DNA of 48,213 bases from Alphaproteobacteria bacterium (lineage in GTDB: Bacteria > Pseudomonadota > Alphaproteobacteria > GCA-2731375): positions 1 to 48,213 of the forward strand of contig JAJFGG010000113.1 of NCBI GenBank assembly GCA_021776235.1, read 5' to 3'. Shown one piece after another: positions 285-38,865 of this stretch. How positions within the stretch are numbered: the first letter of the stretch is position 1; every line of letters begins with the position of its first letter. A program made the translations under genes and the position numbers. The notes under the pieces are model-generated. The model saw nothing but the letters and a program-made list of their open reading frames with translations. It ran no database searches and was not told the origin of the DNA.

Positions 285-1373
285 TCATGACCGTGCCTCG
301 ATATAAATCGACCGCAAAACTTCCGCGGTTCTGCCGATATGATATTTTTGCACAAAACGCTCCCTGGCAGCCTTGCCAAGCTGTCGACGCAAAGTTTTGT
401 CGCTGATCACCTGGGCCAGCGCTGCCGCCAGCGCGATGCTATCACCAGGGGGGACAAGCAAGCCGTTCTTACCATTTTCGATGACCTCGGCATGGGCCCC
501 GACAGGGGTGGCTACTATGGCCAGGCCATGGGCCATGGCTTCCAGTAATGCAATGGAAAGACCTTCCATATGGGAAGGCAAGACAAAAATATTCGCGTTC
601 GAAAAAGCTTGGCTAACTTGTGTCGACGACAACCAGCCGGGAAAGATTGTTTTGGCGGTCAGCGCGGCATCTTCCTGATGCTGGCGAATTTCGGGTAGGT
701 TGCCATCTCCGGCAATCACGGCGGACCATTGAAGACGGGATAGAGCCTCTCCGGACAAAGCTTCGAGGAACTCTTCGACTCCTTTGCCGTGGCTGAATCG
801 GCCCATAAACAGTAGGCGCGCCTCATCATTGATCTGCCCGGATCCGTGCAGATCAATATCAGGTACGCCGTTTGGCATGATGACGATTTTTTGATCCGAC
901 AGCTGAAGTTCTTGATTTGCGAAATCGCGCCAAGTTTCTCCCAGGACGATGGTCCTGCTGGCGCGGCGAAACATCCATACAACCACCCGGGAGGTCAACC
1001 ATGGAAGAGCGGCAAAAAATTGGCGGTAACCGCCGCCATGCAAATGCAGCACGACGGGAACGCCAAATAGGCTTGCCAGGGCGACGACCAAAAGTTTGCG
1101 CCAGGTACTGCCTCGTGAGGCGACATTTACATGCACCAAGGCGACCCGGCCGCGGCTGCACTCTATGGCGATAACGGCCAGCGCGTGCAGCAAATAGAAA
1201 GGAGAAAGCCAGATGCTGCCATGCCCCCGGGTGACCAAAAGCCGCATGGGCGGAACATCATCCATTTGTTGCCAGGCATCCCGTAGATAGCCGACAACCT
1301 TGGCCACGCCGCCGCCGCCCTGTTCCGGTAAGTTGGGAAGGACCATCATGATGTAGCGCTGGTTTCGGGCCAT
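285..1373 (-). CDS. Glycosyltransferase family 4 protein
   Basis: 362 residues, a normal length for a GT-B fold glycosyltransferase. It probably transfers a sugar from an activated nucleotide donor to a lipid-linked repeat unit at the inner face of the cytoplasmic membrane. The N-terminal domain has a glycine-rich loop (GGGG, residues 19-22) and VLHLHGGG near 108. The C-terminal domain starts near 185 with LLFMGRFSHGKGVEEFLEAL and carries the E-x7-E motif EGLSIALLE (E270 and E278), followed by GLAIVATPVGAHAEVI and NGLLVPPGD, which are hallmarks of GT4. Donor and acceptor cannot be read from the sequence. It is followed closely by the CapK-like gene, probably in one operon, and belongs to the exopolysaccharide locus. 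The ATG has AGGAT very close upstream; M9 or M10 are alternative starts. Confidence 0.88.
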   Translation of the reverse strand: MARNQRYIMMVLPNLPEQGGGGVAKVVGYLRDAWQQMDDVPPMRLLVTRGHGSIWLSPFYLLHALAVIAIECSRGRVALVHVNVASRGSTWRKLLVVALASLFGVPVVLHLHGGGYRQFFAALPWLTSRVVVWMFRRASRTIVLGETWRDFANQELQLSDQKIVIMPNGVPDIDLHGSGQINDEARLLFMGRFSHGKGVEEFLEALSGEALSRLQWSAVIAGDGNLPEIRQHQEDAALTAKTIFPGWLSSTQVSQAFSNANIFVLPSHMEGLSIALLEAMAHGLAIVATPVGAHAEVIENGKNGLLVPPGDSIALAAALAQVISDKTLRRQLGKAARERFVQKYHIGRTAEVLRSIYIEARS

Positions 1374-2091
1374 ATCCTAGCCGGATTGAAGGGTTTGTTT
1401 CTTTAGGTTCAGCATGATGGAAGGCAGCGATAATCACCACCTTGCAAAGGAGTCGCTCATACTATTGCCATCCAATTTCCATTGTCGTCCTGGTCGAGGC
1501 ATTATTCCGTCTTTGCCCAATTGGAACTGTCGTGCTCGATAATCCTGAAGACATTATCGGGGGCGTCCGAAAACACCATGCTGATCTGGATCATGCTTTC
1601 CTTTATCTGCCTGTTCAAGAGTAATTCAAGCCGCCCCAATTTAGGGGACCCGCCGGAAGCCGTAACTCGGAGGCCACCACTTGAAACAAAGAGCCTTGCT
1701 GTTGCCCGTCGTCATCTATCCGTCTTTCGCAAACGTGAAGAATAAGTGGCGGCCATATTCGCATTGGTGGGGACTGTCAGTTTCAATTGGCCGAGGTTGT
1801 TGCGGCAAGAACTTGTCTTGGAAAAACTAGAGGACGGCCGCGGATCTGCAATGAACGTCCATTGCCCCATAGACCGCGAAAATCGGGGCTTTGCGAAAGT
1901 GACAAAGAAGAAGTGTGCCTGCATAGCAATAACAGCCCGAACTGAATGTATCTGTGAATACATCCAATTGTTAACAATGGGGCCGTCCTGAGCGGTGCAG
2001 TGGAAATATCTTCCCCCGGCGATTCATCTTGGGTAGCATCGCCAAGGAATTCCAGGTTACTTGTGATTTATCGGTAGATAGGATGAATTAA
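1374..2091. other. Gene-free stretch of about 720 bp
   Basis: No open frame here on either strand resembles a protein I recognise, and the frames present are short and overlap each other. The stretch separates the minus-strand glycosyltransferase from the plus-strand FkbM gene, so it should hold divergent promoters. Two compact palindromes lie at 1947-1978 and are listed separately. A short hydrophobic frame around 1570-1625 is not convincing as a gene. The stretch is long for this otherwise compact region and could be the remains of a decayed gene, but I see no match that proves it. Confidence 0.5.
1947..1978. promoter_or_regulatory. Two adjacent palindromes, possible operator
   Basis: TGTATCTGTGAATACA at 1947-1962 is an inverted repeat with 5-bp arms. 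Four bases further, ATTGTTAACAAT at 1967-1978 is a perfect 12-bp palindrome. They lie about 115-145 bp upstream of the FkbM gene in a stretch without genes, as expected for binding sites of dimeric repressors or activators. The regulator is unknown and chance occurrence of short AT-rich palindromes is possible. Confidence 0.3.
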
Positions 2092-3018
2092 GTGTCGGCT
2101 CGGCCAATCCAATCGTATAGCAGCCTGGGCGCTAGGTTTGAGACGTGGCTACTGTGGCTTGCTGGCGTCTTCTTGCGGCGATATTCATTCCGCGGCATCG
2201 GGACGTTGAGCCGATACCTGGGCAGGGGACCGTTCGACATCAAGAATCACGTTGTCGTTCGCCTTTTTCATAAATCGCGGATCAATATTGATCTTGGCGA
2301 TTATTATTGGTCGCGGCTGCTGTTTGCTGATTTTGAGTACGAGCCGGAAGTGGCACGTGTTATTGCATCGCATCTAAAGCCAAACTGGATTTTCCTCGAT
2401 CTCGGTGCAAATATTGGATACTGGAGCATCTGCGCATCTGAAACCATCGAGGATCCGAAGCGGATCGTGACGGTGGAGGCCGGTAGCGTCACGTTCGAGA
2501 GGCTATGCCGCAATGCGGTGGTCAATGGTGACCCTTTCACGGTGATCCGTGCGGCAATAGCGGAACGGGCTGGAGAGACCGTGACATTTGTCACCGAAGG
2601 CGGGCATGCCGGCGCCCGGGTCGCCGGAACAGACGATCAGTTAATTACTGATCAAGAAATTGAGACGGTCGAAACAAGCAGCATCGATACGTTGATGGCC
2701 GGCATTCAGACCGATGAACAAACCCCAGTGCTTATCAAGCTCGACGTCGAGGGAGCTGAAATTCCTGCTCTGATGGGGGCGTCTAAGACCCTTCAACGCC
2801 CCCATATTGTAATAATCTACGAAGACCATGGCGCCGATAAGCATTGTAAGGTGAGCCGGCATGTAATTGAAAATCTAGGCTTTGATGTTTACCTGATCGA
2901 CGCTGACGGTCCGCCAACAAAAGCATCTCTGGACGTCATTGCCGCTTCAAAAACAGACCCTTTGAATGGGTATAACTATGTCGCTGTACCATCCGGCATG
3001 CCATTTACATTGGATTGA
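2092..3018 (+). CDS. FkbM family SAM-dependent methyltransferase
   Basis: 308 residues. It starts at GTG 2092 with AGGATG about seven bases upstream. The SAM-binding motif I reads FLDLGANIG (residues 101-109). The family signature follows in order: an acidic VEAG strand near 128, SSIDTL near 196 and IKLDVEGAE at 215-223, which is strongly diagnostic of the FkbM fold. FkbM proteins O-methylate sugars or polyketides; in an exopolysaccharide locus the likely substrate is a hydroxyl on the repeat unit, which is an inference. The first 30 residues are hydrophobic and aromatic and could lie along the membrane. It stands alone on the plus strand, followed by about 450 bp without a confident gene. 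Confidence 0.88.
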   Translation: MSARPIQSYSSLGARFETWLLWLAGVFLRRYSFRGIGTLSRYLGRGPFDIKNHVVVRLFHKSRINIDLGDYYWSRLLFADFEYEPEVARVIASHLKPNWIFLDLGANIGYWSICASETIEDPKRIVTVEAGSVTFERLCRNAVVNGDPFTVIRAAIAERAGETVTFVTEGGHAGARVAGTDDQLITDQEIETVETSSIDTLMAGIQTDEQTPVLIKLDVEGAEIPALMGASKTLQRPHIVIIYEDHGADKHCKVSRHVIENLGFDVYLIDADGPPTKASLDVIAASKTDPLNGYNYVAVPSGMPFTLD

Positions 3019-3464
3019 AGGCTGTATCCAGGCGGTAAAGCGGCGGATTTTTGACGGTCGGTGAATGCAAATCCTAAGACCCGAGACGTTTGTTTTTCGA
3101 GCCAGGCTGTTTTCTAACTCGGGGGGGTGAATGCCAACCTTCCCGCTTGCGCCTTCGGAAAAGGACATGCGCGAAGTTCCTGAAGAGATTACCGCGGGCG
3201 CCCAAGAGGTCTCTTCTGATCCGAATCACGCTGTCCTGTTCCGGCCGCTTGAATGGCGATCCGGTCCCCTCATAGATGACGAATTCGCCGCACGACTGGC
3301 CCGCGGCAAGGATGTTTCAAGGCCCAACAATGCGCCGGCAATTTCGAAGGCATTGGGTGCTTGCGGACCGAATTGATGCCGGCGCTGCAGCGTGAAAACT
3401 ATGCTTAATGGTCACTTAAAGTGGCATTAAATGAACCTTAAGAGCGCGGCAAGATACTGGCCGA
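3019..3464. other. Intergenic stretch with one doubtful small ORF
   Basis: About 446 bp between the FkbM gene and the protease gene. The only sizeable plus-strand frame is 3131-3376 (ATG to TGA, 81 codons), starting MPTFPLAPSEKDMREVPEE. It has no clear ribosome site, no recognisable domain and no partner, so I do not call it a gene, though a small lineage-specific protein cannot be excluded. The last 60 bp are AT-rich and contain the palindrome listed at 3405-3430, so the promoter of the protease gene should lie there. Confidence 0.4.
3405..3430. promoter_or_regulatory. 26-bp imperfect palindrome upstream of the LapG-like gene
   Basis: The outer arms are TTAATG (3405-3410) and CATTAA (3425-3430). 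The core CACTTAAAGTG (3413-3423) is a perfect inverted repeat. The site ends 34 bp before the protease ATG at 3465, where an operator or activator site would overlap or flank the promoter. CATTAAT also occurs twice (4162-4168 and 4187-4193) just before the next gene at 4192, with AAGTGCAT between them, so the two genes might share a regulator. No regulator gene is visible nearby. Confidence 0.35.
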
Positions 3465-4130
3465 ATGAAAATTCGAGCCAGGATCATAATCTATGGGCTG
3501 TTGTCGGCTTTCGCACTGATGTCCGCGAGTGCCGCAATGGCTGAAACATCCCCAGAATTATTCGGCACAAACGAGGTCCGCAACAATAATCTGCGCCCGT
3601 TCCCTAAGTGGACCGGTATGCTGCAGCGCTATTTCGCCGACGCTGGCGCTAAACCGGGTCCCTGCACGGCAAAGGTCTTTAACAGCTGTCATGCTGAACG
3701 CTGGCAGGAAGTGATCGATCAATTGCAGGGCCGGGATTTGTCGACACAGTTGCACTACGTCAACAAAGTCATGAACAAACGGCGCTATATTGTTGATCCC
3801 ATAAACTGGGGCGTGCGGGACTATTGGTCCACGCCAGGCCAGTTTTTCGCCAAGTTTGGCGATTGCGAAGATTATGCGATTGCCAAATACCTGACCCTGA
3901 GACGTCTTGGCATAGCGGCCGCGGATATGCGAATCGTCGTTTTGCAAGATCTGAATCTGCGCGTGGCGCACGCGATATTGGTCGTCTATGCCGGGGACGA
4001 TGTTATTATTTTGGACAATCAGATCAAGCGCACGGTGGAGGCGTCGGCAGTCCACCATTACAAGCCAATTTTCTCCATCAATGAAGATGCCTGGTGGCTA
4101 CACCGGGCCAAGCGCCGCAAACGTGGCTAA
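3465..4130 (+). CDS. Periplasmic transglutaminase-like cysteine protease (LapG type, peptidase family C93)
   Basis: 221 residues. A signal peptide occupies residues 1-26 (basic start, hydrophobic core, cut after AMA), so the enzyme should act in the periplasm. The catalytic triad can be read: Cys134 in FGDCEDYA, His169 in RVAHAIL and Asp184 in IILDNQ, with the spacing usual for bacterial transglutaminase-like proteases. LapG, the best studied member, cuts the N-terminus of large surface adhesins and releases cells from biofilms under control of the c-di-GMP receptor LapD. Neither LapD nor a giant adhesin is in this window, so that role is inferred from the fold. Its position beside exopolysaccharide genes fits a function in attachment. 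The downstream gene starts 61 bp later in the same direction. Confidence 0.85.
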   Translation: MKIRARIIIYGLLSAFALMSASAAMAETSPELFGTNEVRNNNLRPFPKWTGMLQRYFADAGAKPGPCTAKVFNSCHAERWQEVIDQLQGRDLSTQLHYVNKVMNKRRYIVDPINWGVRDYWSTPGQFFAKFGDCEDYAIAKYLTLRRLGIAAADMRIVVLQDLNLRVAHAILVVYAGDDVIILDNQIKRTVEASAVHHYKPIFSINEDAWWLHRAKRRKRG

Positions 4131-4161
4131 GGGATGCTGTTTGCACGCGATTGGTTGTCCT

Positions 4162-4193
4162 CATTAATAAAAGTGCATATTCTTTTCATTAAT
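4162..4193 (+). repeat. CATTAAT direct repeat before the sugar-transferase gene
   Basis: CATTAAT occurs at 4162-4168 and again at 4187-4193, 25 bp apart start to start; the second copy overlaps the ATG at 4192. A repeat with this period, about two and a half helical turns, could be a regulator site. The match is short and the region AT-rich, so it may be chance. Confidence 0.25.
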
Positions 4194-5658
4194 GGCCTTA
4201 AACTTAACATCGGTGCCGACCGCCGCCAGATCACCAGCGGTATTGCTTGGGATGGTAAAGTTTGCTGACGGCGCCCTGATAGGCCTGACGGCCGTGCTTT
4301 CCTATTGGAGCAGACATGGCCAGCAAGAGCTCCCCGGCCGTTATATGTTGGCCGCAGTGCTCTGTATCCTGATCGCCTTTCAGGTATTTCATTTCGTAGG
4401 TCTTTATAAGTTCAGCATTCTGAACACGTTGACCAGTCAGGTGACCAAATTGGCCATGGGGTGGTTGATTGTCGGTCTTTCCTTGATCGCGGTGATGTTT
4501 TTCACCAAAACAGCCGAGGAGTTTTCTCGCGTATGGGCGGGGACCTGGTTGACCAGTGCCTTCGTTTGTTTCGTTCTGCTACGGATACTGCTTCTGCTCC
4601 GTCTGCGCAGCTGGCGACGTCAGGGCAAACTGGTCAGCAATATTGCCATTGTCGGAGCTGGTGAATACGGAAGCAGGCTGTTGGCGCATTTAAAGGCCAA
4701 TATGGCGGAAAACTCCCTCAATATCGTCGGTGTATTTGATGACCGTGATACGCGTATTCCGCGTAAGGATTTGGATGGCAGTCCGATTCTTGGCGACACC
4801 GATGATTTGATTGAGCGTTGCCGCAGGGAAGAGATTGACCTGGTGATTATCGCGCTGCCGTGGAGCGCGGAATCCCGCCTGGTCGCGATTATGAACAAAA
4901 TCCGCCAAGTGCCGGTGGATCTGCAATTGGCGCCTGAGCGGGTGGGGTTCCACTTATTCGACCGGCAATTCACCAATCTGGCAGGATTGCCTATGCTGAC
5001 GGTTTTCGAACGCCCATTGTCGGGCTGGAATTACCTCATAAAGGCTTTTGAAGACCGTCTTTTGGCGTTGATCATTTTGACCCTGATCTCGCCGCTATTA
5101 ATTTTCATCGCGATCGCCATAAAATTGGATAGTCCGGGCCCGATCCTGTTCCGGCAGAAGCGTTTTGGCTTCAATAACAATGTCATCACCGTCTGGAAAT
5201 TCCGCACAATGTATCATCACGATGCGAATAGGCCGATGCAGGATGGTGCCGTTGTTGGCGATGAGATTGATGACGTGGTTCCACAGGCCTCTCGCAGCGA
5301 CGTCCGGGTAACCAAATTGGGCCGTTTTCTACGCAGGAGCAGTCTGGACGAACTGCCGCAATTCTTCAATGTTTTACAGGGGTCCATGTCAATCGTTGGC
5401 CCCAGGCCTCATGCCATTGCGCACAACACACAGTTTGCCCAAAGCGTGACGCAGTATTATGCGCGTCATCGGGTTAAACCGGGCATTACCGGGTGGGCGC
5501 AGGTTCATGGCTACCGCGGCGAGACTGACACAAAAGACAAATTGGAAATGCGAGTAAAATACGACCTGTATTATATTGATAATTGGTCCTTGCTGTTGGA
5601 TCTAAAGATTATCTTGACGACGATCTTTGTCGGATTCACCAACGAGAATGCTTATTGA
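4192..5658 (+). CDS. Polyprenyl-phosphate sugar-1-phosphate transferase (WcaJ/ExoY-type priming enzyme)
   Basis: 488 residues. It moves a sugar-1-phosphate from a UDP-sugar onto undecaprenyl phosphate, the first step in building an exopolysaccharide repeat unit. Several transmembrane helices lie within residues 20-140. A Rossmann-like domain follows with GAGEYG at 155-160, then another membrane helix near 285-305. The C-terminal catalytic domain has KRFGFNN and WKFRTM, then RRSSLDELPQFFNVL, SIVGPRPH and KPGITGWAQVHGYRG, all classic for this superfamily. The full-length WcaJ-like layout suggests a glucose-type substrate, but the sugar cannot be proven. The ATG at 4192 has no clear ribosome site; ATG 4252 is an alternative. 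It leads a plus-strand group with the two genes after it. Confidence 0.92.
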   Translation: MALNLTSVPTAARSPAVLLGMVKFADGALIGLTAVLSYWSRHGQQELPGRYMLAAVLCILIAFQVFHFVGLYKFSILNTLTSQVTKLAMGWLIVGLSLIAVMFFTKTAEEFSRVWAGTWLTSAFVCFVLLRILLLLRLRSWRRQGKLVSNIAIVGAGEYGSRLLAHLKANMAENSLNIVGVFDDRDTRIPRKDLDGSPILGDTDDLIERCRREEIDLVIIALPWSAESRLVAIMNKIRQVPVDLQLAPERVGFHLFDRQFTNLAGLPMLTVFERPLSGWNYLIKAFEDRLLALIILTLISPLLIFIAIAIKLDSPGPILFRQKRFGFNNNVITVWKFRTMYHHDANRPMQDGAVVGDEIDDVVPQASRSDVRVTKLGRFLRRSSLDELPQFFNVLQGSMSIVGPRPHAIAHNTQFAQSVTQYYARHRVKPGITGWAQVHGYRGETDTKDKLEMRVKYDLYYIDNWSLLLDLKIILTTIFVGFTNENAY

Positions 5659-5743
5659 TGACCAGACTCGTTGCTAATTTTCACCTGCTGTCGTCAGGTC
5701 TTTGTCGGTCCGAAGACGCGACTACGCTTCAGGAGAATCGTAA

Positions 5744-6172
5744 ATGATTATGCGCGCCATGCATGACCCCTTCTTGGAGCGGTTCTTCTCCAGAATTCCT
5801 CGGGAAATGGCCGAAAGTTTTAGCGATGACCAGTTATTGGCGGTCAAACAGGCTTTTGCCGATCAGGTCGGACGGGTCCATTCGGTTGATTTCCGTGTGT
5901 CCGTGCCTCTGCTGTTTCGCCGCTATTATGTGGTATTTATTGCTGGCCCGGAACGTCGGGATCGGGCGCGTCGGCAACGCGATAAAGGTGCGCGCCGGGC
6001 AGGCAGACGGACCAATTTCGTATTTATGATGATCTTGGCTTCTGTCGGCCTCTGTTCTCTGTTGGGTGTACTTTACCTGCTAAAATCCGCCTTGGGCATT
6101 AATCTGTTGCCGGATATCTCGCTTGGTCTTTGGCGGCAGGTGGCCGAGCAGTTTGGTTTGATGTTCAGGTGA
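5744..6172 (+). CDS. Small single-pass membrane protein of unknown function
   Basis: 142 residues, with AGGAG about seven bases before the ATG. The soluble N-terminal part (to about residue 70) includes RIPREMAESFSDDQLLAV and ends in SVPLLFRRYYVVFIAGPERR. A very basic stretch (residues 72-90) follows, then one hydrophobic helix at about 92-116 and a short tail. The basic stretch before the helix suggests an N-in topology with the first domain in the cytoplasm. I do not recognise a named family. Its place between the priming transferase and the polymerase/ligase gene, in the same direction with short gaps, suggests an accessory part of the polysaccharide assembly machinery, which is inference from context only. 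Confidence 0.75.
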   Translation: MIMRAMHDPFLERFFSRIPREMAESFSDDQLLAVKQAFADQVGRVHSVDFRVSVPLLFRRYYVVFIAGPERRDRARRQRDKGARRAGRRTNFVFMMILASVGLCSLLGVLYLLKSALGINLLPDISLGLWRQVAEQFGLMFR

Positions 6173-6218
6173 GGCCGCAGGCGCCATATCCTGACAGGCG
6201 GTATTTGGCGGCACCATC

Positions 6219-7637
6219 ATGGTGACCGGTTGGCAGCATAAAGCCAATAGCATTGGTTTTTCCATTCTTTTGGGCATTGTGGTACTGGCTCCCTTGCCCT
6301 TTGGCGCCAACCGCCCGTTTTTCTGGTTCCTGATTTCAGCATTGTTGGGTGTGCTGTTGCTTTTCTGGGCGGCAACAGCGCTGGCAAGCCGTAACAATAT
6401 CCCGGCCATCGTCGAAGTGCCTTTCGCAAAATTCAAGATAGAGGCGGGTTTGTTGCTGGTCTTGCTCGCATGGTTTCTGCTGCAGGCGGCGCCGTTGGCG
6501 CCTGAATCCTGGCAGCATCCCGTATGGGCCACGACGGCCCCTGATTTGTCAGGATCCACCGCGGCGGTCAGCGCGACGCCAGATGCGACCATGGACGGGT
6601 GGGTCCGCTTGCTCGGTTATGGTGGCGTGTTTTTCCTGGCCATGCAGTATGGCCGCAACCGAAACAGGGCACGATTAGCGCTTTGGGGCGTTGCCCTGTC
6701 GGGTATTGCCTATGGCCTCTATGGACTGGTCATCCAACTGGGGGGCTTTGACACTATATTGTGGTATCGCCGCTGGGCATATCATGACTCCCTGACCGCT
6801 ACTTTTGTCAATCGCAACTCGTTTGCTGCGTTCGGCGGCATTGCCCTGATATGTTGTGTCGCTGCTTTGACGAGGGTCGAGCGGCGGGTTAACAGGCTGA
6901 CCGGGCAGGAAGATCGCGGCGACTATCTGGAACGCCTCTCGGCCCAAGGTTTGCCGTTGGTGCTTGGTGCGATTGTTATCCTGACCGCTATCCTGCTCAG
7001 CCAATCCCGCGCCGGATTATTGGCAACGGCCTTGGGTTTTATGGTGCTTTACCTCTGCCGGCGCTGGAGGGATTGGGAGCGCCGTCGCATAGGCGGTCGG
7101 GAACGCCAGAGCAGGTGGCGTTCAGCACCGTTGTTCCTGGCCCTAGGGCTGATAGCCGTCGTAGCCATTTCTGGCGCGGCGACGTGGAAACGACTGGACC
7201 GGGAAACCGTGGATGACCCCGGTGGGCGCATAAATATCTACAACGTGACGTTGAAGGCAATTGCTGACAGACCGTTGCTAGGTCACGGTTTGGGCAGCTA
7301 TCGATGGGTTTTCGAGGGCTACCGCACACCTGCCTTACAGCGCGCGAGTATCATCGACAAGGCCCACAATAGCTATCTCGACTTCGCGTTCGAGGCGGGG
7401 GTGCCTGCCTTTTTGGTGCTAATGGCTTTGTATGGACGGCTGTTCATCCGCTGTCTAAACGGGGTGCGGCGACGGCAACAGGATTACATTTATCCCGCCG
7501 TCTCGGTGGCGGCTGCAACTTTGCTGGCCAGCCATTCCATGGTTGACTTCCCTCTGCAAATACCGGCCGTCACCATCGTCTTTCTGTTCTTATTCGGCAT
7601 TGGTTTCGCCCAATCCTGGTCCAGCCAAACGCCATGA
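6219..7637 (+). CDS. O-antigen ligase / Wzy-type polysaccharide polymerase, integral membrane
   Basis: 472 residues, with hydrophobic helices along almost the whole length. Features of the Wzy_C/WaaL superfamily are visible: SQSRAGLLATALGF in the middle, then a large periplasmic loop with LGHGLGSYRWVFEGYRT and DKAHNSYLDFAFEAGV, where the conserved His and basic residues of the family lie. Members either polymerise lipid-linked repeat units or ligate glycan to a carrier. Beside a priming transferase and a Wzc-like co-polymerase, polymerase is the more likely role. No separate Wzx flippase is seen in the window. The ATG at 6219 is 46 bp after the preceding stop, so co-transcription is likely. 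Confidence 0.85.
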   Translation: MVTGWQHKANSIGFSILLGIVVLAPLPFGANRPFFWFLISALLGVLLLFWAATALASRNNIPAIVEVPFAKFKIEAGLLLVLLAWFLLQAAPLAPESWQHPVWATTAPDLSGSTAAVSATPDATMDGWVRLLGYGGVFFLAMQYGRNRNRARLALWGVALSGIAYGLYGLVIQLGGFDTILWYRRWAYHDSLTATFVNRNSFAAFGGIALICCVAALTRVERRVNRLTGQEDRGDYLERLSAQGLPLVLGAIVILTAILLSQSRAGLLATALGFMVLYLCRRWRDWERRRIGGRERQSRWRSAPLFLALGLIAVVAISGAATWKRLDRETVDDPGGRINIYNVTLKAIADRPLLGHGLGSYRWVFEGYRTPALQRASIIDKAHNSYLDFAFEAGVPAFLVLMALYGRLFIRCLNGVRRRQQDYIYPAVSVAAATLLASHSMVDFPLQIPAVTIVFLFLFGIGFAQSWSSQTP

Positions 7638-7718
7638 GGTTGGCAATTACGGATCAACCGTTGGGGCGATAACCTATGGTACACCGGCAGTATGCTTGCG
7701 GTTTAAAGACCGTTGCGA

Positions 7719-8465
7719 CTATGGCCTGATCCGATGTAGATAATGCTGGTCGAAGTTTGCCAACAGAGCGTCACTAGGTTGCAGGGCTTGGCGTACGCCA
7801 GCCACCACATGACGTTGCTCGGCCATTTTGGCCAGGCGCCATGCGGAACGCCCAGCGGCGGTGACAATAAGTGGTTGCTGCAAGGCTCGTTGCGACGGTT
7901 GTAGTACCGGCCAGAACAGCAGGGCAAAATCCAAATGCCGCCATAACAGGCTGTCAAAGAAAGGTGATTGTGCCCGCGATTGCAGGAATGCCGCAACGGC
8001 GCCGCTCTTTTGGGCTTCGTGGACGCCGCCCTGCAGCAGAGCCAGATGCGACAGCCTCAGCCAGCCATAGGAGTTGGCCGGGCTCTTGGCCAAGGCACGT
8101 CTTTGCTGTTCCGCGCTGGCCGCCAGCCAGACTGCGGCCTGGGCGCTAGCCAAATCACCCTGCAGCGCCTGTTGCAGGTTAATCCGGGCCAGATCATTAT
8201 GGGTCTGACTTTGCCGGTGAACCGCCAAACTGTTCCCGAGGGCGCGTTCCGCGCGGACCAGGCGGGAATTGCTAACCGGGTCGCCATTGGCCAATCGATC
8301 CAGCACCCCATTTGCTGGCAGGCGATGTGCTGCAGCCAGAAAGCGGGGGAGGGCGGTCAGACATAGAGACAGGCCCAGTCCGGCAACCACAAAAGACAGG
8401 GCGATAGCTTGAAGCTGGCCCCGCCCCAGCGGTCTATCCTTGATAGTACTTTTCGTAGATGCCAT
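7719..8465 (-). CDS. Membrane-anchored helical-repeat protein of unknown function in the polysaccharide locus
   Basis: 248 residues from the ATG at 8465, which overlaps the end of the Wzc-like gene by 32 bases; an ATG at 8486 would give a longer start. Such an overlap suggests translational coupling. A hydrophobic helix lies near residues 18-40, followed by an alanine- and leucine-rich alpha-helical region with segments resembling TPR-type repeats (NDLARINLQQALQGDLASAQ, and NSYGWLRLSHLALLQG). The bulk is therefore probably periplasmic. I do not recognise a specific family. Being last in the minus-strand export operon, it may be a scaffold for the export complex. The gene converges on the polymerase gene, with about 80 bp between their ends. 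Confidence 0.7.
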   Translation of the reverse strand: MASTKSTIKDRPLGRGQLQAIALSFVVAGLGLSLCLTALPRFLAAAHRLPANGVLDRLANGDPVSNSRLVRAERALGNSLAVHRQSQTHNDLARINLQQALQGDLASAQAAVWLAASAEQQRRALAKSPANSYGWLRLSHLALLQGGVHEAQKSGAVAAFLQSRAQSPFFDSLLWRHLDFALLFWPVLQPSQRALQQPLIVTAAGRSAWRLAKMAEQRHVVAGVRQALQPSDALLANFDQHYLHRIRP

Positions 8466-10755
8466 AGGTGTCCCCGTGGCTGCCATAGGAATAACCTGAA
8501 TGCTTGCGCGCATCCACCTGGGTCAACACCACACCGGCTATATCAGCCTTGGAATCCAAGAGATTACGAAGGCCAAGCGATACGGTCGCTCGATCCGTCT
8601 CCCCCCAACGCACCACATAGATGCATTTATCCACATGTTTTGAAAGAATGGTCGCTTCGGAAAAGGCCAAACTGGGCGGCGTTTTGAACAGGGCCAGATC
8701 ATAACCCCGTTCCAGGCGTTGAATGAGTTGCCACATGCGATCCGAATTAATCAAATCAGTTGGGTTGGGCGCGCTATGCCCGCCGGCAATAAAATGCATC
8801 CCCGATGAATCATCGATTTCTATGATGTCTTCCAGCTTTGCTGTGTCTTCCAGGAATTCCGCCAAGCCACGCAGGTTGGGAACATCCAAATCCGTATGTA
8901 TGGATGGCCGGCGCATGTCGCAATCGACCACTATAACCCGTTGTCCCGCTTGCGCCGCCGAACGCCCCAGGGACAGGGACAAGGACATCTTGCCTTCCTC
9001 CGGCTCCGACGAAGTCACCAGGATGGTTCGAGGTGCGACGCGACCCGATAGCATCAGGGACGTTCGTATGCTGCGGATGCATTCTGCGAACATAGAATTC
9101 GGTTTTTCCAGAACCATATCCTGAGGCCGTAGATGCCGCGTGGCGAAACCGTGCAGTTTAGGCATGATGCCCAACGAGGGTACGCCGGTAATTTGTTCGA
9201 TTTGCGGTATGCTGCGGAAACCAACATCCAGATGTTCCAGTATAAATACCAACACGATACCCACGACGACCGAGGCCAATAGGGCTACGAAAACGATCAG
9301 GGTTTTGCGCGGATAACTGGGGCGCAGGGGTGGAACCGCAGGTGAAATCAGGCGCGCATCCGCCTGCTGCGTGGCATCGTCCTGGACGTCCGTTTCCTTG
9401 AACCGGGTCAGAATCGTCTGATAGATCGCGTCGTTGGCCGCGACCTCGCTTTCCAAAGCGCGCAAGGTGACGACGCTTTCGTTTTGTTTCAGGATCGCCT
9501 GCTTTAGCCGTTCGATCTCGGCAGCGGTCGTGCGTTCCCGAATTTCCGCAATTTCCAGTTCATTGCCCAGACTAGTGGTAATTTTTTCAACCTCACGGCT
9601 GATCTTCTGCTGCAGATCGGTTAATTCAGATTCTTTCAAGATCAGCTTGGGGTGCCGGCCGCGCAATTGCGTTTTCAGTTCCCCCAATTGCCGAATTACA
9701 GCTGCTTCCTGTTCCCGCAATCGTTGGATCAGTTGCGAATCCAGAACGGTTGCCGCGGATTCCGAACCGCCCTCCGATTGCAACAATTTTTGGATTTGCT
9801 GATAACGTGCGTCGGCTTCCGCACGACCGCTCCGCGCGCGGACAAGATCAATATTTAACTGCGCCAGTTGTTGCCCCAGGACGCTGGATTCTCCTTGGAT
9901 ATCGACAAAGCCCATGGTGCGCCGATGAGCTTCCAAGGCATTCCGCGACACTTCCAGGCGCTGCCGTAACTCCGAAACTTGTTGGTTCAGCCAATCAGTG
10001 GCCCTGGCGTTTGCCGCGAACTTTCGCAACACGGTCTCATTGATATAGACTTCGGCCAAGGCATTGGCCGCCTGGGCGGCGAATTCCGGGTCTGTGGAGA
10101 TATACTCGACTTCCAAAACGCGGGAGGATTCCGACGAGTCGACATCCACTCCGGAAAGAAAATCCTCCAGGACATCCTCCCGGAAATATGCCGCCATTTC
10201 CGCCTTGGTATAGGTCTCCTCGGTGGCCTTGGATTTTTTATCGCCGCCGCGCAGTTCATCGCGAACCCAGTCCGGTATCAGGCTACGGACAAAGCCGCGC
10301 AGGTCGATACGGTCGAGAAGTCCCTTGGGTTTAGGTTCTGCCAAGCTCGAGTTGAACAAGGGGTGATTTACCAAATCCAGTTCGTCCACCACCTTTCCAG
10401 CCAAGCCGCGGGACATGAGGACCGCCGCCTCCGTCCGGTTGGTGTAATGGTCAAACCGTCCGCCTTGCAGTACCTGGCGAAATTCAAGGGTCCGGTCACG
10501 TTGCCGTTCCACCACCAATTGGGCTTCAGCAACATACAGCGGAGTGGCCTGCATGACACCCAGAACGGCCAGCAGTGTTATGATAAATGACGTCGCAATG
10601 ATGATCATCTTGCGCCGCCAAAGGGTGTGCACGATTTGGCGCAGGTCGAACGCTGGCTCGCCGTGACCGGCAGGCATGCTATCGAAGGACGGTGCAATCG
10701 TCTCTTCGTAATCCTCGTCGCGGTCGCGCAACGGCATGTAACTTAAATTACTCAT
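8434..10755 (-). CDS. Wzc/ExoP-like polysaccharide co-polymerase with a degenerate tyrosine-kinase domain
   Basis: 773 residues. It has an N-terminal Wzz domain with a first membrane helix at about 50-70, long periplasmic coiled coils at about 230-470, a second helix near 485-510 and a cytoplasmic BY-kinase-like domain. The oligomerisation motif E-x2-R-x2-R (ECIRSIR) is present. Walker A reads SSEPEEGKMSL, with Met590 where the Mg-binding Ser/Thr should follow Lys589. Walker A' (VVDCD, Asp611 and Asp613) is intact. Walker B reads ALFKTPP, with Lys691 replacing the usual Asp. The C-terminal tail keeps six tyrosines between 755 and 771. Wzc-type proteins control chain length and export; here autophosphorylation is likely impaired, so the protein may be a pseudokinase or be phosphorylated by another kinase. 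It heads a minus-strand transcript after an AT-rich gap. Confidence 0.9.
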   Translation of the reverse strand: MSNLSYMPLRDRDEDYEETIAPSFDSMPAGHGEPAFDLRQIVHTLWRRKMIIIATSFIITLLAVLGVMQATPLYVAEAQLVVERQRDRTLEFRQVLQGGRFDHYTNRTEAAVLMSRGLAGKVVDELDLVNHPLFNSSLAEPKPKGLLDRIDLRGFVRSLIPDWVRDELRGGDKKSKATEETYTKAEMAAYFREDVLEDFLSGVDVDSSESSRVLEVEYISTDPEFAAQAANALAEVYINETVLRKFAANARATDWLNQQVSELRQRLEVSRNALEAHRRTMGFVDIQGESSVLGQQLAQLNIDLVRARSGRAEADARYQQIQKLLQSEGGSESAATVLDSQLIQRLREQEAAVIRQLGELKTQLRGRHPKLILKESELTDLQQKISREVEKITTSLGNELEIAEIRERTTAAEIERLKQAILKQNESVVTLRALESEVAANDAIYQTILTRFKETDVQDDATQQADARLISPAVPPLRPSYPRKTLIVFVALLASVVVGIVLVFILEHLDVGFRSIPQIEQITGVPSLGIMPKLHGFATRHLRPQDMVLEKPNSMFAECIRSIRTSLMLSGRVAPRTILVTSSEPEEGKMSLSLSLGRSAAQAGQRVIVVDCDMRRPSIHTDLDVPNLRGLAEFLEDTAKLEDIIEIDDSSGMHFIAGGHSAPNPTDLINSDRMWQLIQRLERGYDLALFKTPPSLAFSEATILSKHVDKCIYVVRWGETDRATVSLGLRNLLDSKADIAGVVLTQVDARKHSGYSYGSHGDTYGIYEKYYQG

Positions 10756-10986
10756 AAACCCGCAACCGCGGCTCCGTTCAATGCGTTAACTGATGCTGTT
10801 CATCGCCAATTATATAAGGCTATACTAACATATACACTATACAGGGATTATGCATAGAATATATTAATTAATTCTTCGGCTGCGAATGAGATTTAGCCAG
10901 AATGCAAGTATTAACTGTGCGACTCTTATGCTACGTATAGTTTATAGATCCAAAATCACCAATCTGTGACGAATTACACATTGTCA
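10756..10986. promoter_or_regulatory. AT-rich intergenic region, probable promoter of the Wzc-like gene
   Basis: 231 bp between the OPX gene and the Wzc-like gene, both on the minus strand. The centre (about 10800-10960) is far more AT-rich than the rest of the window and has repeated CTATAC-like words (near 10822, 10844 and 10936). This suggests a separate promoter for the Wzc-like gene and possibly silencing or regulator sites. No clean -35/-10 pair stands out by eye. Confidence 0.35.
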
Positions 10987-11556
10987 TCAGAATAATCGGC
11001 GCACCACCTCAATGGTGTCGCCCGGGTGGACTGGTGTGTTTAAACTGGCTTTGTATCTTACTGGAACACCCTGACGGTCTTCGCGGATCAGCAAAACAGG
11101 GTCGTGCTTGGCGCGTCGGGTGTAACCTTCTGCGATAGCGATGGCCTTACGTACAGTAATACCAACGATATAGTCGTATTTGCCGGCTTTGTTGACTTCG
11201 CCAAGGATGAAAAACGGGCGGTAGTTCAGCACCTCAATCGAAACCTTCGGGTCGACCACGAAATCGCGATTCAATCTGGTTACAATCCGTTCCTTCAACT
11301 CCGGTACAGTGAAGGTTGCCGCCTTGACCTGTCCGACCAGAGGTACGGCGATGGTGCCGTCGGAGCCCACCGTGGTTTGCCCGGACAGATCCGCATGGCC
11401 AAACACCTTAAGGCTGATCTTGTCCCCTGGGCCAAGAAGGTAATCGGAAAGCTGCGCCCGGGCCGCTCCGGAAAACAGCAGCAGTCCCACCAGGAACAAT
11501 AACTCAATCAACCGGCTGTTGCGGCGGCAGCCGCGCTTCGGGTGCCAAAAGGTCAT
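10987..11556 (-). CDS. Short polysaccharide export (OPX, Wza-like) protein
   Basis: 189 residues. A signal peptide ends near residue 35 (FSGAARAQ) with no lipobox cysteine, so this is a soluble periplasmic or peripheral protein. The Poly_export domain starts with YLLGPGDKISLKVFGHADLSG and contains DGTIAVPLVGQV. An SLBB-type domain starts near 110 (RPFFILGEVNKAGKYDYIVG) and ends in HPGDTIEVVRRLF. It lacks the extra domains and C-terminal amphipathic helix with which full-length Wza (about 380 residues) forms its own outer-membrane pore. Short OPX proteins of this kind are known to work with a separate beta-barrel, and a barrel gene lies immediately upstream, 12 bases before this ATG. It should carry polymer across the periplasm. 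Confidence 0.9.
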   Translation of the reverse strand: MTFWHPKRGCRRNSRLIELLFLVGLLLFSGAARAQLSDYLLGPGDKISLKVFGHADLSGQTTVGSDGTIAVPLVGQVKAATFTVPELKERIVTRLNRDFVVDPKVSIEVLNYRPFFILGEVNKAGKYDYIVGITVRKAIAIAEGYTRRAKHDPVLLIREDRQGVPVRYKASLNTPVHPGDTIEVVRRLF

Positions 11557-11568
11557 GCTGTCATGCTC

Positions 11569-12960
11569 TTACAATTGCACCCCGGCCCGAAGCGTGAATA
11601 CGTTATTCTGATAGTCACTGCCTGCTTGCGAAGAATCTAGTTGTTCGTAGTCATAGCGTGCTTCGACATACAAGTTACTATTCAATAGATACTGCACATT
11701 GAAGCCGATTTCCACCCGGTCTTCCTCTTTGTCTTGACCCGGCAGGGTCGCGTAATCAGAACGCGTAAAGCCGGTCGTGGCCCCGAAGATCAAATTCTCC
11801 CTGGGATCCCAGGCTAATTCCAGGCTGACACTATCATCCAAGGATATCGGCGCGGATGTGCTTTCCACCACCTCCACCGTTCGTTCAGCTTTGACATCCA
11901 AGGTAAACAGCGGGGTAATGTTCCAAAGCAGCCGGCCCACATAAACCAGATCCAGAAAATCGTCCAGCCCGTTCTGTTCGAAATCGTGGAATAAGACGCC
12001 CAGACCCAGTTCCAGGAAGCTCACCGCCGAGCGGTCAATCGTTAGGCCTGCCACAAAGCTCCAGCCCTGATTGTCGCGCACAAAGCCATTGTCGTCGCGG
12101 GATTGCCGGTAATCGATAAAAAGCAGCCCCGGTCGCAGCCAAGCGGTGGTGCCGGTGGTTAATTCATAGCCTTGACGGAGCAGCCAAACATGGCCATGGG
12201 CATCAAGGAAATCCCGTTCGATCTGACCATTGTCCAGGGCATCGATCTGACTGTAGCGATAAAGCATACGAGTAGAATATTTGTCCGCTTGATATTGCCA
12301 ATCGGCTTCTACATTTAGGAGTCTGTCGATCGCCGGCTCCGGTCCTTCCAACTCATCGTCGGTAGAACCCCGCTCAGTGTGGGCCGATGAATAGCCCAGT
12401 TCAAGCTCCAGCACCGTATGTTCGTCCACATCAATCCGCGGGCGCGTCGATATGAAATAATCATCGTAATCTTCGTCTTTGAAATCCTGGTGGCGGCCAA
12501 ATTCGCCGCCGACCTTGATATCCACAAAATGGTTCAGCCAATCAGATTCAAGTGTCAGGGTCGGGCGCAGCACAAATATCGTGTCGGAAACCGTTCTCTC
12601 ATCCACCCTGAAAACATTGTCATCGAACACCAGATCCGTCTCCAGACCCGGCCGCAACAGAAAGCTGTTTACTTGGCTGTCGCGTAGACTCGCCGCTGAT
12701 TTGTCTGGCGTCGCACCGGGGCGCAAGGGCGTCAATGTCGGGTCCGATACGGCTTGTGGGGAAAGTGCGGTGTCTCCAAAGCTCAGAAATTGACCCAACC
12801 GGATGCCTATCGGTTGATATTCTGTTCGGGGCTGGTTGTTAACGGATTCCTGTACCGCTTGCGCCTCGGAGGAGAAATCTGCGCTGATGTTGATGAGATC
12901 CAGTGTCTGCGCCATGCCGCTTTCAGCCAAGGCGCCATAAATTAGCAAGCCCAGCGCCAA
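11569..12960 (-). CDS. Outer-membrane beta-barrel protein of the exopolysaccharide export system
   Basis: About 463 residues from a probable TTG start at 12960. The frame is open much further upstream, but that part lies inside the FecR gene and does not look like a signal peptide. From 12960 the protein begins with a hydrophobic stretch ending in ESGMAQ, a plausible signal peptide, with AAGGCGG a few bases before the TTG. The rest is rich in alternating aromatic and polar residues (for example TVLELELGYSSAH, LYVEARYDYEQLD) and ends in VFTLRAGVQL, a typical barrel end. It resembles the barrel family encoded beside polysaccharide export genes. It is probably the outer-membrane pore partner of the short OPX protein. 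The start codon is the least certain part. Confidence 0.78.
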   Translation of the reverse strand: MALGLLIYGALAESGMAQTLDLINISADFSSEAQAVQESVNNQPRTEYQPIGIRLGQFLSFGDTALSPQAVSDPTLTPLRPGATPDKSAASLRDSQVNSFLLRPGLETDLVFDDNVFRVDERTVSDTIFVLRPTLTLESDWLNHFVDIKVGGEFGRHQDFKDEDYDDYFISTRPRIDVDEHTVLELELGYSSAHTERGSTDDELEGPEPAIDRLLNVEADWQYQADKYSTRMLYRYSQIDALDNGQIERDFLDAHGHVWLLRQGYELTTGTTAWLRPGLLFIDYRQSRDDNGFVRDNQGWSFVAGLTIDRSAVSFLELGLGVLFHDFEQNGLDDFLDLVYVGRLLWNITPLFTLDVKAERTVEVVESTSAPISLDDSVSLELAWDPRENLIFGATTGFTRSDYATLPGQDKEEDRVEIGFNVQYLLNSNLYVEARYDYEQLDSSQAGSDYQNNVFTLRAGVQL

Positions 12961-12982
12961 TAGGTACCGCCTTAGAGCTGCT

Positions 12983-14713
12983 TTAGTTCGGCGATGCTTG
13001 GAGGTTCGGCTCCTCGGTCGGTTGCTGAATACCCAATGCCGCGGCAATCTGCTGCGGCCCGGCGGCGGTTGCAATATCCGATAGGACAGCACCAATCTGT
13101 TCGTCGATCTTGGCATTGGTGGCGGCCAGGCTTTCGCTGTCATTCTGATATTGTTCCTCCACCTCTTTGGGAAGATCGAAATTGCTCTTTTCATCCGTCG
13201 GTTCAACTATGACTGCCGTCAAATAGGTTGAATCACCGGCCAGCGCATCCAAATCGATGACCAATTTTCCATCCACCACTTCAGCCTCGACAATGACCAT
13301 ACCGCCGGTGCCGGCGTCATTCGCGGCAGGTTGCTGGCTTGCCGCCTGACTGCTCTGCGTATCGGGCTGCGCGGCAGCAGGCACGGGATTCGTTTTGACG
13401 TCCGGATCCGGACCGAGGGCCGTTTTCAAGGCTCTGACCTGTGGTGACTTGGGTATGACGGGCCTCGGCGGGGTCGGCGGTCTGCCCCGCGATGTGACGG
13501 TTGAAAATCCAGACCTCACCGTTCTTCTCTTGCCCGCCGAGCTGACCGTCGCCTCGCCTTCGACAACCGATGTGGTTGTTGTGCCGTTGGCTGCCACCGA
13601 GATTTCCAAAATGGTGCCTCTGATGCCCATTGTCGCGGTTGGGGTGCGAATAGAGTACCGATCCTTCGATAGATCGCCCGACACAAACCGCATGACGCCC
13701 CTGCTCAGGGACAACGCAACCTGGGAATTTCTGCCAGAGGGATCAAAGACGAATTTGTCCAGGGTCACGGACGAGTTCGCGCCGATGGAGATTATGGAAT
13801 TATCCAGGAAAACCAGGCGTGCCGCACTATTGGCATCGGTGTTAATTTTTTCGTTGCTGAAGATTTTGTCCTGGAGAACAAGATATCGGGTTTTGGTGGG
13901 TAATACGCCCCGCACCGCGGCGACAATCTTCTGGGCACTCCCGACGGCTGGTGGGCCCGAAGTGGAGCCCGTGCCCCGTCCGCCGCCAGTTATCTGCGTG
14001 CGGTCGCCGGAAAGAGTCCCCGGCTGCAGCCAACCGTCTGGTCCGGATTGCGCAATCGGCACATTTCTGCCGTTGATCCTGACCTTTCTACCCAGCGGAT
14101 GTTGTAGGCTCTTACCTATATTCAGGTTATCGGTAAGAAGCACGACGCGCCATTTGCCGTTGGGAATATTGGCCGTGAATTTTTTCACGTTGACGACGCC
14201 ATCCGACAACAGCCCGTCGCTGGACGGCCGGCGCATGGCCCGGCGATTGGCGCCCGACAGGCGCTCGTCCTTAGCGGTAACATGTTGAAAATTCTGCATG
14301 ATCGTTGAATCGGGAGCGCCAAAGTCAAAGCCAAACGAGCGCGGCGACAAGCGGAAATTTTTCGACATTTTAATTCCGGCGATCGGCTTCGCGAATAACG
14401 CCTGACGGGCCGCTTTGGAGATGGAGTTAACGGCATCCTGCAGGGCGATCGGGTCGCCGGCGATCTTGGAGCCTGCCAGAGACTTGATCAGCTCATTGGT
14501 TCGCTTTTCCATTTGTTCGGATCGGCCGGAAAATTGAGCGAAATACTGCTTCAGTACAGTTTCACCCTTTTTTGTCCCGCTGGCCGCGGCATTCAAGGCG
14601 GCCGCGGCTGAAATGCTCTGGGCGGCAGCGCCGTTCAGGCCGGCGGTGATCGTTAGAGCGCAAACCACGCCACTCAGAACAAGGCCACGCAAACCGCGAA
14701 ATAGCAGGTTCAT
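12983..14713 (-). CDS. FecR-domain secreted protein
   Basis: 576 residues from the ATG at 14713, which has a strong GAGGAG ribosome site; a longer frame to 14791 lacks this. A signal peptide ends near residue 31 (GLNGAAAQS). The middle holds a FecR domain: IFSNEKINTDANSAARLVFLDNS, SIGANSSVTLDKFVFDP, VMRFVSGDL, IRTPTATMGIRGT and SVVEGEATVSS. Proline-rich and Ala/Gln-rich linkers follow, then an acidic C-terminal region. FecR domains outside iron signalling occur in secreted proteins of polysaccharide loci, where a carbohydrate- or surface-binding role is suspected but unproven. It is the first gene of the minus-strand export block, 22 bases upstream of the barrel's likely start, and no sigma-factor partner is adjacent. 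Confidence 0.85.
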   Translation of the reverse strand: MNLLFRGLRGLVLSGVVCALTITAGLNGAAAQSISAAAALNAAASGTKKGETVLKQYFAQFSGRSEQMEKRTNELIKSLAGSKIAGDPIALQDAVNSISKAARQALFAKPIAGIKMSKNFRLSPRSFGFDFGAPDSTIMQNFQHVTAKDERLSGANRRAMRRPSSDGLLSDGVVNVKKFTANIPNGKWRVVLLTDNLNIGKSLQHPLGRKVRINGRNVPIAQSGPDGWLQPGTLSGDRTQITGGGRGTGSTSGPPAVGSAQKIVAAVRGVLPTKTRYLVLQDKIFSNEKINTDANSAARLVFLDNSIISIGANSSVTLDKFVFDPSGRNSQVALSLSRGVMRFVSGDLSKDRYSIRTPTATMGIRGTILEISVAANGTTTTSVVEGEATVSSAGKRRTVRSGFSTVTSRGRPPTPPRPVIPKSPQVRALKTALGPDPDVKTNPVPAAAQPDTQSSQAASQQPAANDAGTGGMVIVEAEVVDGKLVIDLDALAGDSTYLTAVIVEPTDEKSNFDLPKEVEEQYQNDSESLAATNAKIDEQIGAVLSDIATAAGPQQIAAALGIQQPTEEPNLQASPN

Positions 14714-15007
14714 TTTGAGCTCCTCGACGACATGCCGTGCCATGGTGCCCCGAAAGACGAGGGCCATGACCAAATCATGCACACGATCCACATCACAATA
14801 TCATACTTGGTCTCTCGAAGCACCTGCGTCAATAGCCGTCAAAATTCCGGGCATTCTGGAAGGTTTCATGTAAAAAGGGCCTCCAATGATGCAGTCTTTG
14901 GCGAATTCGTTAAGAAACTATAAACGCAAGGATGGACCTGATGAGTGGCCAGCTCCGAACTTGTTTCAAATTAGGGCGTTTATGACCATGCCAGGACAAG
15001 CTGTACC
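14714..15007. promoter_or_regulatory. Divergent intergenic region
   Basis: About 294 bp between the minus-strand FecR gene and the plus-strand nucleotidyltransferase-like gene. It must hold the promoter of the export block and probably that of the plus-strand gene. No strong hairpin, clear -35/-10 pair or convincing small gene is visible by eye. Confidence 0.3.
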
Positions 15008-37737: not shown

Positions 37738-38865
37738 ATGACCGAAATAAGTTATCAAGATTTACCCTGGCCGGTGCGGGAGGATATCACCGCCGCCCAG
37801 AGGCGGGCCTGGGACCGCCTGGGCCGGGCTGGTACCTGGTTGACGGGGGCAGAGCGGATCGCCATCGCCGAAGAGGCCCGCCACGCTAGCCATTGTAAAT
37901 TGTGTCAGGCCCGCAAAGAGGCCCTTTCGCCTCAGGGCGTATCGGGGAGCCATGACCACCTGGGCCGCTTGCCCGCGTTGGAAGTAGAACAAATTCACCG
38001 TATCCGCACCGATCCCGGACGCCTCAGCCGATCCTGGTACTTCGGGCTACGCGACGATGGCATGGCCGAAGAACGTTATGTGGAAACTGTTGGCGTCATC
38101 GTCACCACGGTGGCGATCGATACCTTCACCAAGGGGCTTGGCATGGAACCATGGCCCCTGCCAACGGTACGGCCGGGGGCGCCATCGCGACAGCGGCCCA
38201 TCGCGGCTAAGCGCGAATTGGCCTGGGTCGCGACCTTGCCGCCTGCGGACGCTGTCGGCACGCCGGACGAGGATCTGTACGCTGGCCGGCCGACGGCGGC
38301 GCATATTTATCAGGCCATGAGCCTGGTGCCGGCGGAAGTGAAAGGTTTTTTTGATCTGGTCACGAGCCAATATCTGCCGCCCGCGGCGATGACGGATTTT
38401 GACAACGAATACCGGGCAATCAATCATGCCCAGATTGAATTGGTTGCGGGACGGGTATCCGCCCTGAACCAGTGCGTCTACTGAACCACCAGCCACGGCC
38501 AACTGCTCCGTGCGAGCGGCAAAAATGACGGTGATGCCTACGATCTTTCGGTGATGACGAGGGATGACGCCGGCGGTGACGGTGGCGTTAGTAATGGTGG
38601 CAGGCTGATTCGCTTCGCGACGGCTGTTTTGGGCAATGACGCCTCGGAATTGGCGGCGGCCCGCATGGACATTGCCGACGCCATGGGCGGTGCGGCGTTG
38701 ACCGATACGGCGGCCGTGGCGGCGTTGTTCAATGCCATTGACAGGGTGGCCGACGCAACGGGCATCCCCTTGGAAGACGTGAAGGCGGCAGCGACCGTGG
38801 ACTTCCGTGCCGCAATCGGCATTGATGACTTTGCTGCCGCGTCTGAAAAGGGCGGCGTCCCATGA
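37738..38865 (+). CDS. AhpD-like alkylhydroperoxidase-related selenoprotein (TGA at 38482 read as selenocysteine)
   Basis: 375 residues if the in-frame TGA at 38482-38484 encodes selenocysteine (U249). The upstream half has an AhpD-like N-terminal module with CKLC at Cys53 and Cys56. The second module reads LNQCVY-U-TTSHGQLLRA, i.e. Cys246-x-x-Sec249 followed by His253, exactly the C-x-x-C-x-x-x-H centre of AhpD and carboxymuconolactone-decarboxylase folds. After the TGA, 126 sense codons follow in the same frame without interruption, ending at TGA 38863-38865, with normal coding composition and predicted helices (ASELAAARMDIADAMGG, FNAIDRVADATGI). CACGG (38494-38498) and CCGTG (38508-38512) form a hairpin nine bases after the TGA, a position suitable for a bacterial SECIS element. 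This is consistent with the family annotated as alkylhydroperoxidase-related (seleno)protein, probably a thiol or peroxide reductase. Conventional gene finding would split it. Confidence 0.88.
38482..38512 (+). promoter_or_regulatory. Recoding site: selenocysteine TGA and candidate SECIS hairpin
   Basis: The TGA at 38482-38484 sits at the second Cys position of a CxxC motif. Nine bases later a 5-bp stem (CACGG 38494-38498, CCGTG 38508-38512) closes a 9-base loop CCAACTGCT. Bacterial SECIS elements are hairpins just after the UGA that are bound by SelB, and their sequence varies strongly between species. The stem here is short, so the assignment rests mainly on the protein evidence. Confidence 0.6.

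Follow-up and report, generated by a model that had tools for sequence, protein, structure and literature searches.

The closest described relatives of the gene analyzed here belong to a selenoprotein family that has already been named. In a 2026 review NF041238 appears under the name "AhpD-related protein (hypothetical protein 1, Sargasso Sea metagenome)" with a CxxU motif (PMC13188914). The metagenome report counts four sequences with Sec for hypothetical protein 1 and suggests that it may have a redox role; its table row reads 4, 7, 0, 5, where the figures 7 and 5 are perhaps the numbers of Cys forms (PMC1088965). The AhpD-like 1 and 2 selenoproteins of ocean metagenomes likewise carry CxxU in an AhpD-type protein and were assigned by other domain models, COG2128 and pfam02627 (PMC2398784). 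The catalytic relay of AhpD-type proteins has been described for Mycobacterium tuberculosis AhpD (Glu118, Cys130, His132, Cys133, and His137) and for Pseudomonas aeruginosa PA0269 (Glu36, Cys48, Tyr50, Cys51, and His55), which both use Cys and not Sec; the PA0269 site is located near its N-terminus, and the protein is possibly a weak hydroperoxidase (PMC3141380). Our literature search found no reported function or functional study of the NF041238 family; among the papers searched, one mentions NF041238 and none mentions CFYUT.

We analyzed a gene in a stretch of 48,213 nucleotides from an alphaproteobacterial draft genome, here termed the window. The reading frame is interrupted once, by a TGA at 38482-38484. 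The in-frame upstream part is an open reading frame of 248 codons starting with the ATG at 37738, and 126 open codons follow the interruption before the terminal TGA at 38863-38865. A sequence-only reading of the window had proposed that these two same-phase frames join over the single TGA, and coordinates and translation agree with this. The joined translation is 375 residues long and contains ...NHAQIELVAGRVSALNQCVYUTTSHGQLLRASG...; it was confirmed that the join gives LNQCVY-U-TTSHGQLL, with the TGA at the second position of the C-x-x-U-x-x-x-H motif. Plain open reading frame calling splits such a selenoprotein gene at the TGA.

The joined protein matched the NCBIfam model NF041238, AhpD_rel_CFYUT or "alkylhydroperoxidase-related (seleno)protein," with a score of 475 bits, the cut-off being 175, and residues 13-366 aligned to profile positions 1-356 of 357. 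The match to TIGR00777, the AhpD subfamily, was 16.7 bits against a cut-off of 191.95. By these profile scores the 375-residue protein is AhpD-related and not AhpD itself. Pfam recognized one CMD domain at residues 227-279. The C-x-Y-U-T motif, which we took from the name of the NF041238 model, is found as CVYUT. The gene thus shares with the published hypothetical protein 1 the full-length match, the CxxU followed by T, and the Sec site; CVYU in place of the CFYU of the model name was the only distinguishing feature seen. The unusual architecture claimed by the sequence-only reading is that of a family already named and in print, of which this gene is a typical member. The features of the gene are given in Table 1.

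Table 1. Features of the AhpD-related selenoprotein gene, in positions of the window.
Feature	Position	Strand	Basis
NF041238-family (AhpD-related) selenoprotein gene, 375 residues, Sec249	37738..38865	+	NCBIfam profile match and translation
Probable degenerate AhpD-like repeat (N-terminal half)	37738..38181	+	hhalign, PDB profile match
C53-x-x-C56 (CKLC)	37894..37905	+	both Cys in 64/71 family members
Glu234, equivalent of AhpD Glu118 and PA0269 Glu36	38437..38439	+	E in 71/71; spacing as in PMC3141380
Cys246-Val247-Tyr248 of CxxU	38473..38481	+	C in 71/71, Y in 70/71
TGA, very probably read as Sec249	38482..38484	+	same alignment column in 71/71 family members
His253, equivalent of AhpD His137 and PA0269 His55	38494..38496	+	H in 71/71
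SECIS-type hairpin, within the reading frame	38503..38519	+	alifold consensus, pairing, codon restriction

The C-terminal half aligned with the peroxidase-related enzymes of the PDB entries 6k40, 3c1l, and 2oyo. The profile match to the AhpD of 6k40, whose site is CVYC with Cys instead of Sec, had an E-value of 1.3e-15. Residues E234, C246, Y248, U249, and H253 complete the AhpD relay with Sec instead of the second Cys. The spacing of 12/2/1/4 equals that of PA0269, and the relay is the same Glu-Cys-(His/Tyr)-Cys-His arrangement that is described for M. tuberculosis AhpD and PA0269 (PMC3141380). Glu, Cys, Sec, and His were each found in all family members compared, and Tyr in all except one.

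The family set was collected from searches of the order and the class, which gave 82 tblastn rows over 83 loci; 11 duplicate rows were dropped, and two loci of genome G002 gave no tblastn row. This left 71 distinct genes of 37 genomes, and in every one of them the TGA occupies a single alignment column. The sample is uneven, being weighted to one genus and falling into 22 groups at 60% identity. Second TGAs in some family rows are positioned 3' of the conserved region, and extra stops in some order-level rows lie outside the proteins as delimited. All 15 genomes of the order matched the joined protein to some degree, giving 34 rows. Thirty of these were at family level (E-value at most 1.9e-67) and all 30 had the TGA, while the remaining four consisted of three weak generic matches and one remnant in G002. 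For the class, up to five candidates per genome were scored in 385 genomes. At least 49 matches in 27 genomes exceeded the NF041238 cut-off, up to five of them in a single genome, and each had exactly one TGA; among the candidates scored, the next score was 66 bits. This suggests that the family keeps Sec, and the question of why certain enzymes hold on to selenium could be studied well with it.

The sequence-only reading had stated that a chance stop would not be expected at this motif, and the single alignment column bears this out. It had also named two kinds of homologs as support, those with an aligned TGA and those with Cys at position 249. The former were found throughout the set, and the latter were not, as every full-length relative found has the TGA. 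No Cys form of the full two-domain protein exceeded the cut-off among the candidates, up to five per genome, that were scored in the 385 class genomes. In a sample of 398 genomes of the phylum searched for Cys forms at an E-value of 1e-25 only the source genome itself matched, and neither plasmids nor PHROGs gave a match to the family. The restriction to Sec applies to the genomes covered by these searches and may not be general.

The part following the TGA was described in the earlier reading as protein-like, and this agrees with the ratio of nonsynonymous to synonymous changes. Compared to the nearest relative, G006 (89% identical), dN/dS was 0.100 before the TGA and 0.091 after it. With three other relatives the ratio was 0.10-0.12 upstream of the TGA and 0.145-0.162 downstream of it; a fifth pair differed in length and was left out. 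These ratios indicate that the post-TGA part is kept as protein and is slightly less constrained in three of the comparisons.

In bacteria, the SECIS element is a hairpin shortly after the UGA, with a small apical loop and a G within its first two bases. The consensus fold (alifold) of the 71 post-TGA stretches contained one hairpin, at positions 22-38 counted from the TGA, with the sequence CUGCUC-CGUGC-GAGCGG. It begins 18 nucleotides past the TGA and has a 6-bp stem (22-27/33-38) and a 5-nucleotide loop with G as the second base; in all 71 genes the first two loop bases are CG or AG. On sequence features the hairpin therefore resembles a bacterial SECIS element. A different hairpin, nine bases past the TGA, had been pointed out in the sequence-only reading; it varies among close relatives and is absent from the consensus fold. 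Single-sequence folding was uninformative as a SECIS test, the post-TGA stretch of the window gene being no more stable than shuffles (z from +0.40 to +0.65), and codon restriction was used instead.

Codon choice was tested because protein conservation alone could yield invariant bases. Leu257 is encoded by CTC in 70 of 71 genes (the exception is CGC, Arg), compared to 20% CTC among the Leu codons of the family. All 71 genes use AGC or AGT for Ser260 (45% in the family), and Arg258 is CGT in 59 of 71 (15% of the family's Arg codons, 282/1870). At codon 259 the residue is variable and the third base is always G. As controls, Ser241 was TCN in 70 of 71, Leu78 and Leu196 were CTG or TTG in most members, and Leu270, located shortly past the hairpin, was mixed (20 CTC, 19 CTT, 14 CTG, and 9 TTG). 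Base pairing was found in 93.5% of the stem cells of the alignment, a value reached by none of 500 shuffles, with versions slid along the alignment pairing in at most 56.5%. The covariation score of 0.151 was likewise reached by none of 500 shuffles, and slid versions scored at most 0.104. Two-sided changes occurred in two of the six stem pairs, which 165 of 500 shuffles reached and two slid versions exceeded; two-sided cells numbered 8 in register, above all shuffles, and 8, 21, and 11 when slid by +1 to +3. Covariation is modest by these measures, so that codon choice and pairing speak for a constraint on the RNA more than compensatory change does.

The genes selA, selB, selD, and that for tRNA-Sec had been named in the sequence-only reading as the machinery to look for. 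The first three were found in the source genome and tRNA-Sec was not, a result that bears on one of the conditions set by that reading for its own refutation. selA (583.5 bits), selB (414.3 bits, with in-frame neighbors), and SelD (381.6 bits) all scored over their cut-offs, and selA and selB are located together on one contig (C166). The genome has two SelD genes. One (C46, L025:4210-5295) has its own in-frame TGA in HGGGUGSK, and the other (C25, L026:2180-4456) encodes an oxidoreductase-SelD fusion. Among the 385 class genomes 56 have selA, namely all 27 with a member of the family versus 29 of the 358 without (Fisher p = 3e-26, uncorrected for the kinship of the genomes).

tRNA-Sec was not found in the source assembly by the Rfam model, a sequence pattern, BLAST with a congener's gene as query, or a covariance model of our own. 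The two Rfam matches over the gathering score were tRNA-Ser, and our covariance model scored 118-121 bits in two congeners and at best 49 bits in the source genome. The two whole-genome RNA searches scored 150 candidates in each genome and could have missed a strongly diverged gene. Of the 15 genomes of the order, 13 have tRNA-Sec. The pattern together with ARAGORN revealed it in nine, and BLAST together with ARAGORN in G002, G011, G013, and G014; the two genomes where it was not found are the source genome and G012. Of the regions flanking tRNA-Sec in G006, the source genome has only scattered pieces of 64-78% identity (best 40 of 93 candidates), as could result from a gap in the assembly and equally from loss of the region. 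A tRNA-Sec gene nested within selB has been described (PMC8124441). This arrangement was rejected here, since a search with ARAGORN of 18 kb surrounding the selA-selB pair of the source genome gave no tRNA. In congener G003 the tRNA-Sec (L088) is flanked by two open reading frames whose translations do not resemble SelB, and selA is on another contig.

The curated family, the conserved TGA, the constrained hairpin, the purifying selection past the TGA, and the presence of selA, selB, and selD make it very probable that the UGA is decoded as Sec at the second position of the AhpD motif, in a peroxidase-like active site; Sec insertion would then take place in the source organism. An ordinary CxxC AhpD whose TGC or TGT was misread or misassembled as TGA has nothing in its favor except the general possibility of such errors in a draft genome. 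As the same TGA is shared by 71 distinct genes of 37 genomes and the downstream codons are restricted by the hairpin, an error is extremely improbable and was rejected. It could also be that the lineage of the source organism recently lost tRNA-Sec, so that the TGA now acts as a stop and leaves a useless fragment of 248 residues while relatives still read through. The missing tRNA-Sec would suit such a loss, and the merely scattered similarity to the G006 flanks could stem from loss of the entire region or equally from a gap in the assembly. However, selA, selB, and the SelD genes are intact, selection past the TGA is not relaxed compared to G006, and two family members and a Sec-containing SelD are still present in the genome. 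A gap would also arise easily in a draft of 174 contigs with a completeness of 98.43%. We therefore consider a recent loss quite improbable.

Given Sec at this site, the protein may act as follows. SelB and Sec-tRNA-Sec would decode the UGA, aided by the hairpin, and Sec249 would replace the second Cys in an AhpD-type site formed by Glu234, Cys246, Tyr248, Sec249, and His253. The Glu/His relay would activate the selenol, which would reduce a hydroperoxide or another oxidized substrate. A selenenyl-sulfide would form with Cys246 and then be reduced by a dithiol donor, and the N-terminal half with its CxxC could have a structural role or take part in electron transfer. The peroxidase role is inferred by homology, and the substrate, the donor, and what the N-terminal half does are likewise inferred. 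The peroxidase step taken alone appears somewhat probable, with the Glu-Cys-Tyr-Sec-His relay complete and nearly invariant. A selenoprotein without peroxidase activity, which would use CxxU for disulfide reduction, as a peroxiredoxin adaptor, for selenium handling, or in another thiol/selenol step, is a serious if less favored possibility. It agrees with M. tuberculosis AhpD being an adaptor for AhpC (PMC3141380). It also agrees with the window, where the neighbors, named by eye, show no link to peroxide, and with the class, where no fewer than 8 of the 49 matches have selA at a distance of under 5 kb or adjoin a SelD gene; the completeness of the relay speaks against it.

The N-terminal half is moderately likely to be a diverged AhpD repeat. 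The chains of 6k40, 3c1l, and 2oyo comprise 188-197 residues and therefore lack this half. When the N- and C-terminal halves of 50 members were compared by hhalign, 102 columns aligned with CxxC on CxxC (E-value 7.6e-4, probability 25%). The N-half profile matched 6k40 with an E-value of 0.005 over a stretch past the CxxC and 2oyo with an E-value of 0.06 over a stretch including it. No Pfam family was found for the N-terminal half of the window protein, and Pfam on the N-terminal halves of 50 members gave scattered matches, each in a single member. An AlphaFold model from three close sequences had a pLDDT of 34.5 and was not used. In the first domain the relay Glu is missing, position 41 being V, L, or I in 68 of 71 members, and so is the relay His, position 60 being K in 56 of 71. 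The protein thus does not have two complete AhpD sites. The CKLC noted by the sequence-only reading is present with both Cys, but without Glu and His it does not form a complete AhpD-type thiol center.

Seven members are without the N-terminal CxxC. One (L040) is truncated by a contig end, and the other six form a divergent subgroup with full support and a long branch (G115, G220, G291, G309 twice, and G386). The two genes of G309 that belong to this subgroup adjoin each other (L144, G309:C9:214157-216428).

A tree of 70 members, in which 14 of 67 inner branches were open and long branches were flagged, contained several paralogue groups that all keep Sec. One could speculate that the alphaproteobacterial family is obligately selenium-based and functions as a two-center peroxidase, with the N-terminal CxxC reducing the C-terminal selenenyl-sulfide as a built-in reducing domain that arose by duplication of the AhpD fold. 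The obligate use of Sec is suggested because no Cys form was found among full-length members and Sec was kept through several paralogue groups; we regard the proposal as a whole as tentative and rather unlikely.

The source genome has a second family member with an in-frame TGA, 46% identical to the first (C16:18441-19517; L052, L130). In another genome a short stretch resembling AhpD and containing one in-frame TGA (L085, G041:C141:202-594; 65.8 bits) is perhaps from another AhpD-like selenoprotein family.

The neighbors of the window gene, named from their translations, are PEBP-like, MltB-like, and RlpA-like, and four or five of the genomes whose gene neighborhoods were compared have kept them beside it; the gene is not near selA or SelD. 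In the congener G002 it is gone from between the PEBP-like and MltB-like genes, with about 49 C-terminal codons left (L150:4961-5107), and selA and tRNA-Sec are retained. This remnant at the syntenic site shows that the family gene can be lost. Family members near selA and/or SelD genes were seen at L113, L114, L116, L119, L120, L131, L136, and L137. Seven of the at least eight selenium-linked class matches are located within 5 kb of selA, and that of G079 adjoins a SelD fusion. At L113, L119, and L120 a SelD-fusion-like gene comes immediately after the family member, on the opposite strand. Elsewhere in the window, at positions 285-14791, the translations look by eye like glycosyltransferases, chain-length proteins, and export proteins, which would make and export an exopolysaccharide.
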